Source of the DNA: Pedosphaera sp.
Lineage (GTDB): Bacteria; Verrucomicrobiota; Verrucomicrobiia; Limisphaerales; DSYF01
Length of the DNA stretch: 53,388 nucleotides
Reading direction: 5' to 3'
Assembly (NCBI GenBank): GCA_017853715.1
Contig: JAFMIZ010000008.1
Location: 1 to 53,388 of the forward strand
The notes under the pieces were generated by a model. That model was not told where the DNA came from and searched no databases. It worked only from the letters and a program-made list of their open reading frames with translations. Position numbers and translations under genes: made by a program. Shown piece after piece: positions 2-5,553 of the stretch; within the stretch, counting starts at the first letter, position 1; the number at the start of each line of letters is the position of its first letter.

Positions 2-682
2 CCAATCCTCGACAAATGGTATGAACAGGACCGGCTCCAGAAGATCAGTTACCACCAGGATCACGGCGAAGGTTACGATGGTTATCACGTCGGCAACACG
101 CGCGGTTGTGGCGGGCTGGGACTGTGGGTGGATGGCACGCTCGTCACCTCCGACACCTACCTTGAGGCGGAGATCCTCTGGACCAAACCAGACCTGGCAG
201 AGTTCAAGACGGTTCATCAATACCCGGTGAAGGTGGGCGGCAAAACCGTCTATGAGAATCGCATCACCCGGCTGCATCTGGGTAAACGGCTCTTTGAAGC
301 GGACAGCTTCTTTTCGCACACGTTCGGGCGGGCCGCGAAGCCGCTCATGGATTTTCCGCACGAAATCGCCATTGGCCTGGTGACGCAGAACAAGGGTGCG
401 CAGATCCAGTTCCTGCCGGAGCAGGGGATCGCATCAGTTTATGAACAACTCGACGGCAAGGGCCTCGGGACGGGGGTGATCGTTCCGGCGGCGATGTTTC
501 TGCGCAGTGCCGAACTGCCCGCCGAGGACAAGCCGGGCAAGAATGCCCAAGCACTCGTGATCACCAAACCGGATGCCAAGGGACATGTCGTCCATCGTGC
601 AGGCTTTGCGTGGGCGGGCGACGGCGAAATCACCAACGCCAAGCAGTGGTCGACGTATCTGTCCGGACAAGTCCGCAAATAG
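2..682 (+). CDS. DUF4861-family protein, C-terminal part (5' truncated by window edge)
   Basis: Frame open from base 2: PILDKWYEQDRLQKISYHQDHGEGYDGYHVGNTRGCGGLGLWVDGTLVTSDTY..., resembling the DUF4861 motif yHqDhGeGyD...GcGGlglw. Confidence 0.75.
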   Translation, partial: PILDKWYEQDRLQKISYHQDHGEGYDGYHVGNTRGCGGLGLWVDGTLVTSDTYLEAEILWTKPDLAEFKTVHQYPVKVGGKTVYENRITRLHLGKRLFEADSFFSHTFGRAAKPLMDFPHEIAIGLVTQNKGAQIQFLPEQGIASVYEQLDGKGLGTGVIVPAAMFLRSAELPAEDKPGKNAQALVITKPDAKGHVVHRAGFAWAGDGEITNAKQWSTYLSGQVRK

Positions 683-803: not shown

Positions 804-2831
804 ATGAAAACCAAGGTCATGATGCAGTTAATCCTTTGCGCTGGCATGGGGAGCCTGATGGTGTCGGCGGCCGCTGCGCCGGTCACGAAGCCCAACCTTC
901 TGATCATCGTCGCCGATGACATGGGCTGGTCGGACGTGGGCTGTTACGGCGGGGAAATCCAGACGCCGAACCTGGACAAGCTGGCGGCAAACGGCCTGCG
1001 CTTCACGCAGTTTTACAACACCTCGCGGTGCTGGTCGTCGCGCGCTTCGATTCTCACCGGCCATTATCCCCAGGCGGTGCGGCGCGATCTGCTGCCCGAG
1101 GTGGATCGCGGTGAATACGGCATGTTCGGTCCGATCAGTGGCGCGAACGGTGTCCGTCCGCGGTGGGCGCAGATGTTGCCCGCGTATTTGCGGCCGCTCG
1201 GGTATCGCAATTATCACTCCGGCAAGTGGCACCTGGACGGCGACCGTCTGCCCGCGGGATTTGACCGGTCTTACTCGCTCGAGGACCACAACCGATTCTT
1301 CAGTCCGCAAAATCACCTGGAGGACGATGTGAAACTGCCGCCGGTCGAACCGGGCAGCGGCTACTACGCCACGCGGTTCATCGCCGACCACGCGATCAAG
1401 TGCCTCAAAGAACACGCGGCGAAGCACGCCGATCAACCGTTCTTTGAATACCTCTGTTTCACCGCGCCGCATTTCCCGCTTCAGGCGTTGCCCGAAGACA
1501 TCGCCCTCTACAAGGATCGCTACAAAGCCGGCTGGGACGTGATCCGCAAAGAGCGCCACGCGCGCATGAAAGAGATGGGACTGGTGAATTGCAACCTGCC
1601 TCCGCTTGAGCCGGACGTGCTGCCGCGCTGGAATCTCACCGATGCCGAGATGCACAGCCAGATCAGCAGCAACGAGCTGGCCCGCGCCGTCGCGTGGGAC
1701 AGCCTCACGCCGGGGCAGCAGGAATTTCAGGCGGAAAAGATGGCCATCCACGCAGCGATGATTCATCGCATGGATATCGAGATTGGACGCGTGCTGGACC
1801 AGCTCCGGGAGATGGGTCAGCTCGACAACACGCTGGTGCTTTTCGTCTCCGACAACGGGGCGAGTTCGGAGCAAATTCTGCGCGGCGACGGCAACGATCC
1901 CGCCGCGCCGCCGGGTTCGGCCAAGTCATATCTTGGCCTCGGCTCGGGGTGGTCGAGCGCGGCGAACACGCCTTTCCGCCTTCACAAGTCGTGGACGCAC
2001 GAAGGCGGCATCACCACGCCGCTCATAGCGACCTGGCCCGCGGGCATCAAGGCGCGGGGTGAACTGCGCCGCGACCCGGGGCACTTGATCGATTTCGTGC
2101 CGACCGTTCTGGAACTGACCGGGGCGAGCCTGCCCGCGGAGGTGGCCGGATTGCCCGTGCCGCCGTTGCCGGGCAAGAGTCTCGTGCCGGCGTTCGCAAA
2201 GGATGGTGTGTTGCCGCGTGACCTGCTGTGGTTCCATCACGACGGTCATCGCGCTGTGCGCGTGGGTGACTGGAAACTGGTGTCGCGCGACGAGCGTCCG
2301 TGGGAGCTCTACCATCTGGCCAAGGACCGCGGCGAAACCAAGGATCTCGCCGCCAAGAATCCACAGAAAGTGATGGAACTCGAACTGGCATGGCTGAAGG
2401 AAGCGGAGGTGTTGCGACGTCTGGCGATGCAGGATTTGCCGGCGACGAAGGCGGTTCCGGCGGTTGATCCGAATGCCAAAAAGCCCAGCAGCGCCCCGGA
2501 GGCCGCCGCACCGGCCGCCACGATCATGGCCGCCAGGCTCAAGCTGAAGCCGGGCATGGGGGAAGAGTACAAGAAACGGCATGACGCCATCTGGCCGGAG
2601 TTGTCGCAAGCCCTCCGCGCCGCCGGGATCAGCGACTTCACCATTTTTCTCGACGAGGCCACCGGCGATTTGTTCGCTGTGCGAACGGTCGCGGCAAACA
2701 ACACCGCCGCCGAATTGCGCAAGAGCGAGATCATGCGCAAGTGGTGGGATCACATGGCCGACATCATGGAAGTGAACCCGGACAACTCACCGGTCAGCGT
2801 GCCGCTCAAGCAGGTGTTCCATCAGGATTGA
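804..2831 (+). CDS. Secreted type I sulfatase with C-terminal L-rhamnose mutarotase (RhaM-like) domain
   Basis: Signal peptide MKTKVMMQLILCAGMGSLMVSAAAA; sulfatase N-term PNLLIIVADDMGWSDVGCYGG and CWSSRASILTG; C-term GEEYKKRHDAIWPEL...KWWDHMADIMEVNPDNSPVSVPLKQVFH matches E. coli RhaM as recalled. ORF track begins at 768; ATG at 804 gives a better signal peptide. Confidence 0.9.
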   Translation: MKTKVMMQLILCAGMGSLMVSAAAAPVTKPNLLIIVADDMGWSDVGCYGGEIQTPNLDKLAANGLRFTQFYNTSRCWSSRASILTGHYPQAVRRDLLPEVDRGEYGMFGPISGANGVRPRWAQMLPAYLRPLGYRNYHSGKWHLDGDRLPAGFDRSYSLEDHNRFFSPQNHLEDDVKLPPVEPGSGYYATRFIADHAIKCLKEHAAKHADQPFFEYLCFTAPHFPLQALPEDIALYKDRYKAGWDVIRKERHARMKEMGLVNCNLPPLEPDVLPRWNLTDAEMHSQISSNELARAVAWDSLTPGQQEFQAEKMAIHAAMIHRMDIEIGRVLDQLREMGQLDNTLVLFVSDNGASSEQILRGDGNDPAAPPGSAKSYLGLGSGWSSAANTPFRLHKSWTHEGGITTPLIATWPAGIKARGELRRDPGHLIDFVPTVLELTGASLPAEVAGLPVPPLPGKSLVPAFAKDGVLPRDLLWFHHDGHRAVRVGDWKLVSRDERPWELYHLAKDRGETKDLAAKNPQKVMELELAWLKEAEVLRRLAMQDLPATKAVPAVDPNAKKPSSAPEAAAPAATIMAARLKLKPGMGEEYKKRHDAIWPELSQALRAAGISDFTIFLDEATGDLFAVRTVAANNTAAELRKSEIMRKWWDHMADIMEVNPDNSPVSVPLKQVFHQD

Positions 2832-2931
2832 GTGGTGAAGTATCTTTGCCCGGTCGAAGTGATTTAGCGGCGACATCCCGGCCCGGACAAGTTAGCAATC
2901 CAGATCGCGCAGAATTTTACCGGACAGCAAA

Positions 2932-5553
2932 ATGAACAGAACCGTACTGCTGACCTTGATCACCGCAGCCTCCACCAGTCTGGCCGTCGCCGGAGGCAGG
3001 GCCCATTCGTTGACTGTGGGCGATGGGTTTGAAACCCCGATTGGATTTCACGATGCGACGCCGACGTTCTCCTGGAAGTTGCCGCCGGGCGTGGCCAAGC
3101 AGACCGCTTATCGCATCGAAGTCCGGGGTGAGGGAGTGCAGTGGGACAGCGGTTGGGTCGAGTCCGACCAGTCGGTGTTTGTGCCATATGGCGGCGAGCC
3201 GTTGGGTGCGCGGCAGCAACTGGCCTGGCGGGTCGACTATCGCGATGAAAAGGGGAGGGCCCCCGGCTGGAGCAAGCCGTCCCCGGTCGAGCTAGGACTG
3301 CTTTCCGCCAGTGACTGGAAAGCGAAGTGGATCCGACCGGACCAAGCCAGCGACCTCAGGAACGAGCCGGTTGCCTATTTGCGCCGGGAATTCCCGGTGA
3401 CGGCCAAAGTGGAGAAGGCCCGGCTTTATGTCACCGCACGCGGCCTGTTCGAGGTGCATCTCAATGGTGCGAAAGTCGGCTCTGATGCCTTCACGCCCGG
3501 TTGGACCTCCTACTCCAACCGGATCGACACATTGACCTACGATGTGACGCAGCAACTGGCCAAGGGCGGCAACGCCATCGGTGTGATGCTGGGAACAGGA
3601 TGGTATGCCGGGCGCCTGGGCTGGATGCACGAGAAGGGGTTGTTCGGTCGTCACCCGGAGTTGCTGATGCAACTGGAGATCGTTTATCGCGATGGAACGC
3701 GGCAAACGGTGCTTTCCGACGAGCAATGGCGGGCAACCTTCGACGGGCCGATCCGCGGCTCCAGCATCTATGATGGTGAAACCTATGATGCGCGCCGGGA
3801 AATGCCGGGCTGGGACAGGGTCGGCTTTGATGATTCCGCGTGGGGCAAAGTGAGGGCCAACCCCGAACTGGGTGCGGCGCGCCTGACGCCCAAGCCATTC
3901 CCGACCGTGAAGGTGACGGAGGAACTGCGGCCAGTGGCGGTCACCGAGCCGTCGCCCGGACGGTTTGTGTTTGATCTGGGGCAGAACATGGTCGGGTGGG
4001 TCGGGCTTTCGCTGCCCGGGGTGAAGGACCAGACCGTTCAGATTCGCTTCGCGGAAATGCTCAACCCCGACGGCACGATCTACACGACCAACTACCGGTC
4101 GGCCAAATCAACCGACCGCTACACGGCGGCCAAAACCGGGACGTTTCATTGGCAACCCACCTTCACCTTTCATGGCTTTCGCTACGTGGAGGTTTCCGGT
4201 CTGGCCGAAGGGACGAAGCCGAAGAAGAGCGCGGTCAAGGGGCTGGCGCTGCGCTCGGGCATTCCAAAGATCGGCAAGTTTGAATCCTCGCACCAGAAAT
4301 TGAACCGGTTGCAGAGCAACATCTCGTGGGGGCAGCGCGGGAACTTTTTGGAGGTTCCCACCGACTGCCCGCAGCGCGACGAGCGGCTGGGTTGGACCGG
4401 CGATGCGCAGGCGTTCTGTTCGACCGCCATGTTCAATCATGACTGCCTCGCCTTCTTCAAGAGTTGGCTTGGTTCAATGCGGGACGATCAACTGCCGGCG
4501 GGGCAAATCCCCCATGTCATCCCCGATGTGTTGCATCAGGGTGGCAGTCCGGGTTGGATGGATGCGGCGACGATCATTCCGTGGGAAGTCTATCAGCGCA
4601 CGGGCGACCAGGAAGTGCTGGCCGACAACTATTCCATGATGGAAAAGCTGGTGGGCTATTACCGCAGCCGCGCGAAGAATGATTTGATCCCCAAGATGGG
4701 CGGATTCGGTGACTGGCTTCAGCCTCATGCCAAAGGAACAAGCGGCGACACGCCGAGGGAACTGCTGGGCACGGCCTTCTATGCGCAAGCCTCGCGGATC
4801 CTGGCTGGCACGGCGGGGCTGCTTGGAAAACCGGACGACGCCAAGAAATATCAGGCTGAAGCCGAGGCGGTGAGCGCTGCGTTCGGGAAGCACTATTTTG
4901 GTGCGGATGGCAGATTGCAAAACGCGCCGGAAACGCAGACGGCTTACATTCTCGCGCTGCATTTCAAGCTTGTTCCCCCGGATCTTGTCACGCAGGCCGA
5001 GGCGAACCTGCTGCGCTTGATCGACGAGGCCGGCGGTCATTTGCGGACGGGATTTCTCGGCACGCCCTACCTTGCCCAGGTGCTGGACAAGGCCGGCCGT
5101 CCGGAGGTCGCGTATTCGCTGCTCTTCAAGGAAACCTATCCCTCGTGGTTCTATTCCATCAATCAGGGAGCGACCACGATGTGGGAACGGTGGGACAGTT
5201 ATACCAAGGAGAAAGGATTCCATCCCGAGGGCATGAACTCCTTCAATCACTACGCCTACGGGGCGATCGGCCAATGGATGTATGAGCGCGTGGCGGGGCT
5301 CGCGCCTGATCCGGCGCACCCCGGTTACAAACACTTCTTCGTCCGGCCAATGATGGGCGGACCGCTCACCTCCGCCCGCGCCGAGCTTGAGACCGCGTAT
5401 GGCAAGGCGTCGTGCGGTTGGAAGCTGGCCGGGAAAACCGTGCAGCTGGAAGTGGAGGTCCCTCCGAACACCACGGCAACCATTGAATTTCCCAACGGCC
5501 GCAAACCCGAACCGGTCGGAGCTGGGAAACACCGTTTCAGATTGAAGCGGTGA
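2932..5553 (+). CDS. Secreted alpha-L-rhamnosidase, GH78
   Basis: Signal peptide; GH78 hallmark VPTDCPQRDERLGWTGDAQAF and MNSFNHYAYGAIGQWMYERVAGL; bacterial rhamnosidase N-domain WKAKWIRP. Confidence 0.95.
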   Translation: MNRTVLLTLITAASTSLAVAGGRAHSLTVGDGFETPIGFHDATPTFSWKLPPGVAKQTAYRIEVRGEGVQWDSGWVESDQSVFVPYGGEPLGARQQLAWRVDYRDEKGRAPGWSKPSPVELGLLSASDWKAKWIRPDQASDLRNEPVAYLRREFPVTAKVEKARLYVTARGLFEVHLNGAKVGSDAFTPGWTSYSNRIDTLTYDVTQQLAKGGNAIGVMLGTGWYAGRLGWMHEKGLFGRHPELLMQLEIVYRDGTRQTVLSDEQWRATFDGPIRGSSIYDGETYDARREMPGWDRVGFDDSAWGKVRANPELGAARLTPKPFPTVKVTEELRPVAVTEPSPGRFVFDLGQNMVGWVGLSLPGVKDQTVQIRFAEMLNPDGTIYTTNYRSAKSTDRYTAAKTGTFHWQPTFTFHGFRYVEVSGLAEGTKPKKSAVKGLALRSGIPKIGKFESSHQKLNRLQSNISWGQRGNFLEVPTDCPQRDERLGWTGDAQAFCSTAMFNHDCLAFFKSWLGSMRDDQLPAGQIPHVIPDVLHQGGSPGWMDAATIIPWEVYQRTGDQEVLADNYSMMEKLVGYYRSRAKNDLIPKMGGFGDWLQPHAKGTSGDTPRELLGTAFYAQASRILAGTAGLLGKPDDAKKYQAEAEAVSAAFGKHYFGADGRLQNAPETQTAYILALHFKLVPPDLVTQAEANLLRLIDEAGGHLRTGFLGTPYLAQVLDKAGRPEVAYSLLFKETYPSWFYSINQGATTMWERWDSYTKEKGFHPEGMNSFNHYAYGAIGQWMYERVAGLAPDPAHPGYKHFFVRPMMGGPLTSARAELETAYGKASCGWKLAGKTVQLEVEVPPNTTATIEFPNGRKPEPVGAGKHRFRLKR

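Follow-up and report, generated by a model that had tools for sequence, protein, structure and literature searches.

A conserved fusion of a sulfatase and an L-rhamnose mutarotase domain in a putative glycan degradation locus of Verrucomicrobiota

The locus and the fused gene

The window (the whole stretch of 53,388 nucleotides analyzed here, contig C93 of a 3.0-Mb Pedosphaera genome assembled in 203 contigs) carries near its beginning a gene whose product, predicted to be exported, unites a sulfatase with an L-rhamnose mutarotase (RhaM) domain in 675 amino acids (positions 804 to 2831, forward strand, as are all window features below). The reading frame is open from 768 to 2831 with no internal stop, and 804 is its probable start. 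Judged by eye, the N terminus, MKTKVMMQLILCAGMGSLMVSAAAA, resembles a signal peptide (804 to 878; a start with Lys, a hydrophobic stretch, and SAAAA-P, with a helix predicted at residues 2 to 22), and export is predicted from this signal sequence. It is followed by an S1 sulfatase domain (PF00884; 891 to 2126), an Ala/Pro linker predicted to be disordered (2448 to 2525; residues 549 to 574, pLDDT <50), and a mutarotase domain that spans positions 3 to 104 of PF05336 (2529 to 2822). In the AlphaFold model, the two domains are separate and the linker between them is disordered; the model is good for the sulfatase but only fair for the mutarotase part, for which the alignment is thin, and pocket geometry was therefore not read from it. 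The original prediction had described this layout of signal peptide, sulfatase, linker, and near-full-length RhaM in a single ORF, and the Pfam and TIGR02625 matches and the continuous frame bear it out.

Downstream lies a gene for a secreted GH78 alpha-L-rhamnosidase (2932 to 5553), which is full length, with five Pfam domains, a signal-peptide-like start, and a match to 3W5M at 4.8e-200, in agreement with the earlier description of an adjacent exported GH78. The coordinates given earlier were right, but the locus is larger, as base 1 of the window coincides with a contig end and lies within a gene for a secreted GH105-DUF4861 protein. The C-terminal part of this protein (1 to 682; DUF4861, 5e-12) lies in the window, and the N-terminal GH105 part lies on contig C101 of the same genome (G000:C101, L182:2338-3723). 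The last 55 bases of C101 are identical to the first 55 of the window. A GH105-DUF4861 protein at locus L033 matches window positions 2 to 667 with its residues 447 to 671 and the very end of C101 with its residues 15 to 464. Both the overlap and the split gene lead us to infer that C101 and C93 join; the genes then run along one strand in the order BNR_4 lyase-like protein, GH105-DUF4861, sulfatase-RhaM, and GH78.

The sulfatase half matches the Pfam Sulfatase model above its cut-off (1.1e-51). Aligned to Pseudomonas aeruginosa arylsulfatase (PAS), whose active-site residues we take to have the catalytic roles used for position matching, it keeps all counterparts at the positions placeable in the alignment (Asp, Asp, Cys, Arg, Lys, His, His, Asp-Asn, and Lys). 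Cys76 (1029 to 1031) is the predicted formylglycine residue. It lies in the motif CWSSR, which differs from C-x-[P/A]-x-R (in this family, CWPSR or CWPTR) by Ser at +2. CWSSR or CWSTR recurs among close relatives of the window protein, fused or unfused; Ser at +2 is shared by the unfused sisters L114 and L115, and the fused sulfatase of L034 has Pro at +2. The source genome has one FGE gene and 33 sulfatase-domain matches. Known ulvan sulfatases are not the nearest relatives; the nearest solved and characterized enzyme is BT4683 (PDB 7ALL), a 3S-galactose (3S-Gal) sulfatase of subfamily S1_4, and the fused sulfatase resembles S1_4 on the basis of this structure. Its likeness to S1_4 sulfatases (BT4683 and PAS, 1HDH) extends over the full length and the catalytic residues, whereas it differs from those with CxPxR in its CWSSR motif and attached RhaM. 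The substrate does not follow from the fusion alone, and the earlier argument that it predicts a rhamnose sulfate does not hold in that form.

The mutarotase half matches Pfam rhaM over 102 of 105 model positions (1.3e-27) and passes the cut-off of 99.6 bits for the L-rhamnose mutarotase equivalog TIGR02625, with 103.1 bits in the fusion and 108.4 bits for the domain alone. Its best solved relatives are the L-rhamnose mutarotases 6HHN (3e-34; presumably from Formosa agariphila), 2QLX, and 1X8D. With these known RhaM/YiiL/RhaU proteins (PF05336, TIGR02625), it shares whole-domain sequence similarity, the catalytic His, and the Trp pair, but they are free proteins without a signal peptide, whereas here the domain is C-terminal on an exported sulfatase and has Phe for Tyr41. 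In the alignment to Escherichia coli RhaM, in which we take His22 to be catalytic and Tyr18, Trp76-Trp77, and the pocket residue Tyr41 to have roles as well, His593 (2580 to 2582) corresponds to His22, Tyr589 to Tyr18, Trp647-Trp648 (2742 to 2747) to Trp76-Trp77, and Phe612 (2637 to 2639) to Tyr41. Tyr18, His22, Trp26, Trp76, and Trp77 are invariant across all four fusions described below, but Tyr41 is replaced by Phe in all four, whereas nearly all unfused rhamnose-type RhaMs have Tyr. Read from the alignment, the replacement would weaken a claim of identical chemistry but not of membership in the RhaM family, as Tyr41 is typical and not known to be essential.

Distribution and origin of the fusion

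Of the 80 loci returned when genome contigs were scanned with the fusion, three hold it in full: L033 (Akkermansiaceae), L034 (Haloferula), and L035 (Verrucomicrobiales; same contig as G026:C132, beginning within the sulfatase). Among the matches listed in a whole-protein search of 384 genomes of the class, no other one covered both domains. RhaM matches across 388 genomes of the phylum included none besides in a sulfatase frame (longer frames inspected), and in 27 further genomes, RhaM never lay within a sulfatase-sized frame. A 542-amino-acid frame at L017 was rejected as a further fusion; it is a read-through, the frame coding for something else upstream. We found no paper on rhamnose mutarotase, sulfatase, and their fusion in the open-access literature, most subscription journals being outside this coverage.

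In both the RhaM tree and the sulfatase tree, the four fusions form one clade with the identical topology ((window,L035),(L033,L034)), with a support of 94 in the RhaM tree, which has 95 columns and is weakly resolved in general, and of 99 in the sulfatase tree. As both clade and inner topology agree, the data are most simply explained by a single fusion and subsequent descent, and the four sequences count as one lineage. The source assembly is fragmented, and a fused gene could arise in it by misassembly, a frameshift, or chance read-through of two genes. We regard such an artefact as practically ruled out, because the same architecture occurs in four assemblies, three of them independent copies, that fall into one clade in both trees, and because the frame is continuous. 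The fusion is a true one, as originally predicted.

Purifying selection acts on the RhaM domain, with dN (0.13 to 0.32) well under dS (0.7 to 2.0) in all pairs (Nei-Gojobori, dS near saturation); in the window-L035 pair, dN is 0.13 and dS, near saturation, about 2. This selection, together with the invariant Tyr18, His22, Trp26, Trp76, and Trp77 and the passing of the equivalog cut-off by the window domain, argues against a domain that has lost or lowered its catalysis and serves as a rhamnose-binding or dimerizing module holding the sulfatase on its substrate. We consider such a module quite unlikely, even though it would agree with the Phe at Tyr41 in every fusion, with a Pfam search of the fusion that found no carbohydrate-binding module on the sulfatase, and with the RhaM domains of L033 and L034, which score slightly under the TIGR02625 cut-off (94.1 and 90.9 versus 99.6). 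A dimerizing role would be possible, as RhaM enzymes are small dimers.

A GH78, GH105, or lyase gene lies beside three of the four fused genes (window, L033, and L035) versus none of 58 non-fused homologues, all of which have flanks of 2 kb or more on each side. The order is GH105-DUF4861, fusion, and GH78 at L033 and fusion followed by GH78 at L035, and the GH78s of both are of a shorter subtype than that of the window; the fusion at L034 stands alone, without any such neighbors. The domain and neighborhood search that had been suggested for sulfatase-RhaM architectures recovered three further fusions, two of them with such neighbors. We conclude that the fusion is confirmed, as an architecture, to be genuine, rare, and conserved, and that it would belong to a coherent pathway.

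A proposed role at the end of glycan breakdown

We propose, with a probability of roughly 60%, that the fusion is exported and combines two activities at the end of a pathway, within an operon that degrades a sulfated L-rhamnose-glucuronate glycan (ulvan-like, Rha3S-GlcA). The nearest solved relative of the GH105 is 4CE7, an unsaturated 3S-rhamnoglycuronyl hydrolase acting on ulvan (4e-78; next relative, 2e-50). The best match of the upstream BNR_4 protein is the Rha-alpha-1,4-GlcA lyase FoRham1 (7ESK, 6.5e-34), of which it keeps six active-site residues (His85, His105, Tyr150, Arg166, Tyr202, and Arg220), including those expected of a PL42/PL24 lyase, the base-acid His (His85), supporting His (His105), and neutralizing Arg (Arg166). 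The active-site residues of FoRham1 have been named, and its catalytic residues are common to PL24 ulvan lyases (PMC8377490). This context fits the mini-locus for sulfated rhamnose glycans that had been postulated, with a GH105 most similar to an ulvan enzyme and a lyase-like beta-propeller, but the locus has at least four genes, not two.

We infer the reaction order, the substrate, and the mutarotase activity as follows. The beta-propeller lyase (C101) would cut Rha-alpha-1,4-GlcA bonds, the GH105 would take off the unsaturated uronate to leave free rhamnose 3-sulfate, and the sulfatase domain would remove the sulfate to give free L-rhamnose. The RhaM domain, on its flexible linker, would then interconvert the anomers of L-rhamnose before uptake via the RhaT symporter and isomerization by RhaA, with the GH78 trimming rhamnose from other ends. 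When Formosa agariphila enzymes break down ulvan, free Rha3S is the product of GH105, and free Rha appears only once the last sulfatase is added (PMC12858550). As a GH105 of the ulvan type lies just upstream here, the product of the fused sulfatase would be free L-rhamnose, the substrate of RhaM. The Formosa agariphila pathway (lyase, GH105, and S1_25) likewise brings lyase, GH105, sulfatase, and GH78 functions together, with the sulfatase acting last and releasing Rha, and its S1_25 chain is named rhamnosidase/sulfatase GH78 in PDB 6HR5. In contrast, the partner of the sulfatase here is RhaM rather than GH78, the sulfatase is of another subfamily, and the lyase is PL42/PL24-like.

Lyase cleavage breaks the uronate C4-O bond, so that rhamnose is left in the alpha form, and an inverting GH78 yields beta rhamnose; the mutarotase would equilibrate the two before uptake. 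The inverting GH78 had been the argument put forward for a mutarotase at this locus. However, the rhamnose on which RhaM would act is most probably supplied by the branch of lyase, GH105, and sulfatase (free Rha3S, then Rha), which makes the GH78 argument secondary. The benefit might be to supply an anomer-selective transporter or to relieve product inhibition. For NanM, a mutarotase that acts on sialic acid in the periplasm, both supply of a beta-specific transporter and relief of sialidase inhibition have been proposed, and the anomer preferred by rhamnose and fucose isomerases is described as unknown (PMC8141875). We use NanM as a working parallel, as it exchanges anomers outside the cytoplasm on a sugar freed by a glycan-degrading enzyme; it differs from the fusion in fold and sugar and in being a free protein, and no membership is claimed.

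The target could instead be another Rha-GlcA glycan, for example arabinogalactan caps like those of gum arabic or an exopolysaccharide rich in rhamnose from bacteria or microalgae, with the sulfatase acting on another sugar sulfate. The upstream lyase is nearest to FoRham1, which is an exo-acting gum arabic lyase, a PDB search with it at E 0.01 returned no PL24 or PL25 ulvan lyase, and the nearest relative of the fused sulfatase acts on 3S-Gal, all of which would suit such a glycan; so would diatom exopolysaccharides, some of which have a high rhamnose content and which are considered a likely substrate of Verrucomicrobiota (PMC8857213). On the other side, the GH105 is clearly closer to 4CE7 (266 bits) than to 5NOA (175) or YteR (63). 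Gum arabic, to our knowledge, is also not sulfated, and we judge this alternative to be somewhat unlikely. Our preferred reading of an enzyme for an ulvan-like glycan has further points against it: besides the S1_4 (3S-Gal) affinity of the sulfatase, these are the Phe at Tyr41, the lack of neighbors at L034, the other subtype of the L033 GH78, and two features of rhamnose use given below (RhaA genomes without RhaM and the free RhaM of L033).

The locus suggests that a single molecule outside the cytoplasm performs both final steps in the release of rhamnose. If the proposal is correct, anomer exchange, usually seen as cytoplasmic housekeeping, can be built into extracytoplasmic polysaccharide breakdown, and one molecule would serve to ask why bacteria retain mutarotases, whether for the preference of a transporter or an isomerase or to relieve product inhibition. 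As a "Rosetta stone", the fusion also hints at rhamnose sulfate as the substrate of this poorly known, S1_4-like clade of sulfatases.

Mutarotase relatives and rhamnose use

We surveyed about 140 RhaM domains, which are not independent sequences, and called signal peptides by our own hydropathy rule. Under this rule, none of the 68 unfused rhamnose-type RhaMs has a recognizable signal peptide, and 66 of the 68 have Tyr at the Tyr41 column. Among fucose-type RhaMs, Phe occurs in 10 of 17 exported proteins and Tyr in 33 of 37 cytoplasmic ones. Phe in place of Tyr41 thus tends to accompany export in two branches of the family. What had been said of RhaM, that it is normally a free enzyme of the cytoplasm, applies to the rhamnose type, but exported fucose-type RhaM-like proteins are common in the phylum. 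Within this sample, the sulfatase fusion appears to be the only exported rhamnose-type RhaM, and exported relatives of RhaM otherwise exist. We tentatively suggest, at a little under even odds, that the fusion is an exported desulfating mutarotase that sets the anomer of the released L-rhamnose and that Phe at Tyr41 marks extracellular adaptation in the two branches.

In the source genome, RhaA adjoins RhaT on C127, and no second rhamnose-type RhaM is present in the genomes of the window, L034, and L035. A replacement of the cytoplasmic RhaM by the fusion is not upheld: the L033 genome also has a free cytoplasmic RhaM, and 15 of 37 RhaA-bearing genomes (the source genome being in the set) have no RhaM of any kind, which indicates that mutarotation is often dispensable.

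A second cluster in the source genome (L186, G000:C191) encodes a BNR_4 protein, GH95-like and GH78-like proteins, and two sulfatases. Fucose-type RhaMs with lipoprotein or signal-peptide starts form an exported group that occurs in many genomes, both of Verrucomicrobiota (L021, L022, L019, L023, L257, L258, L264, and L266) and from Planctomycetota records (L280, L285, L277, and L281). Tandem pairs of RhaM-like domains lie within one exported protein at L165 (2640-3470), L247, and L164 (2639-4507). At L166 (3965-5278, reverse strand; G055:C445), a RhaM-like domain follows about 330 residues that look by eye like an alpha/beta hydrolase; this N-terminal part had no Pfam or PDB match at the thresholds used. 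The genome of L033 also encodes a protein (L286, 112-1815) in which an amidohydrolase, by eye similar to a lactonase, is joined to a divergent RhaM-like domain, and the counterparts of these two parts in the source genome are separate genes on C24 (L163).
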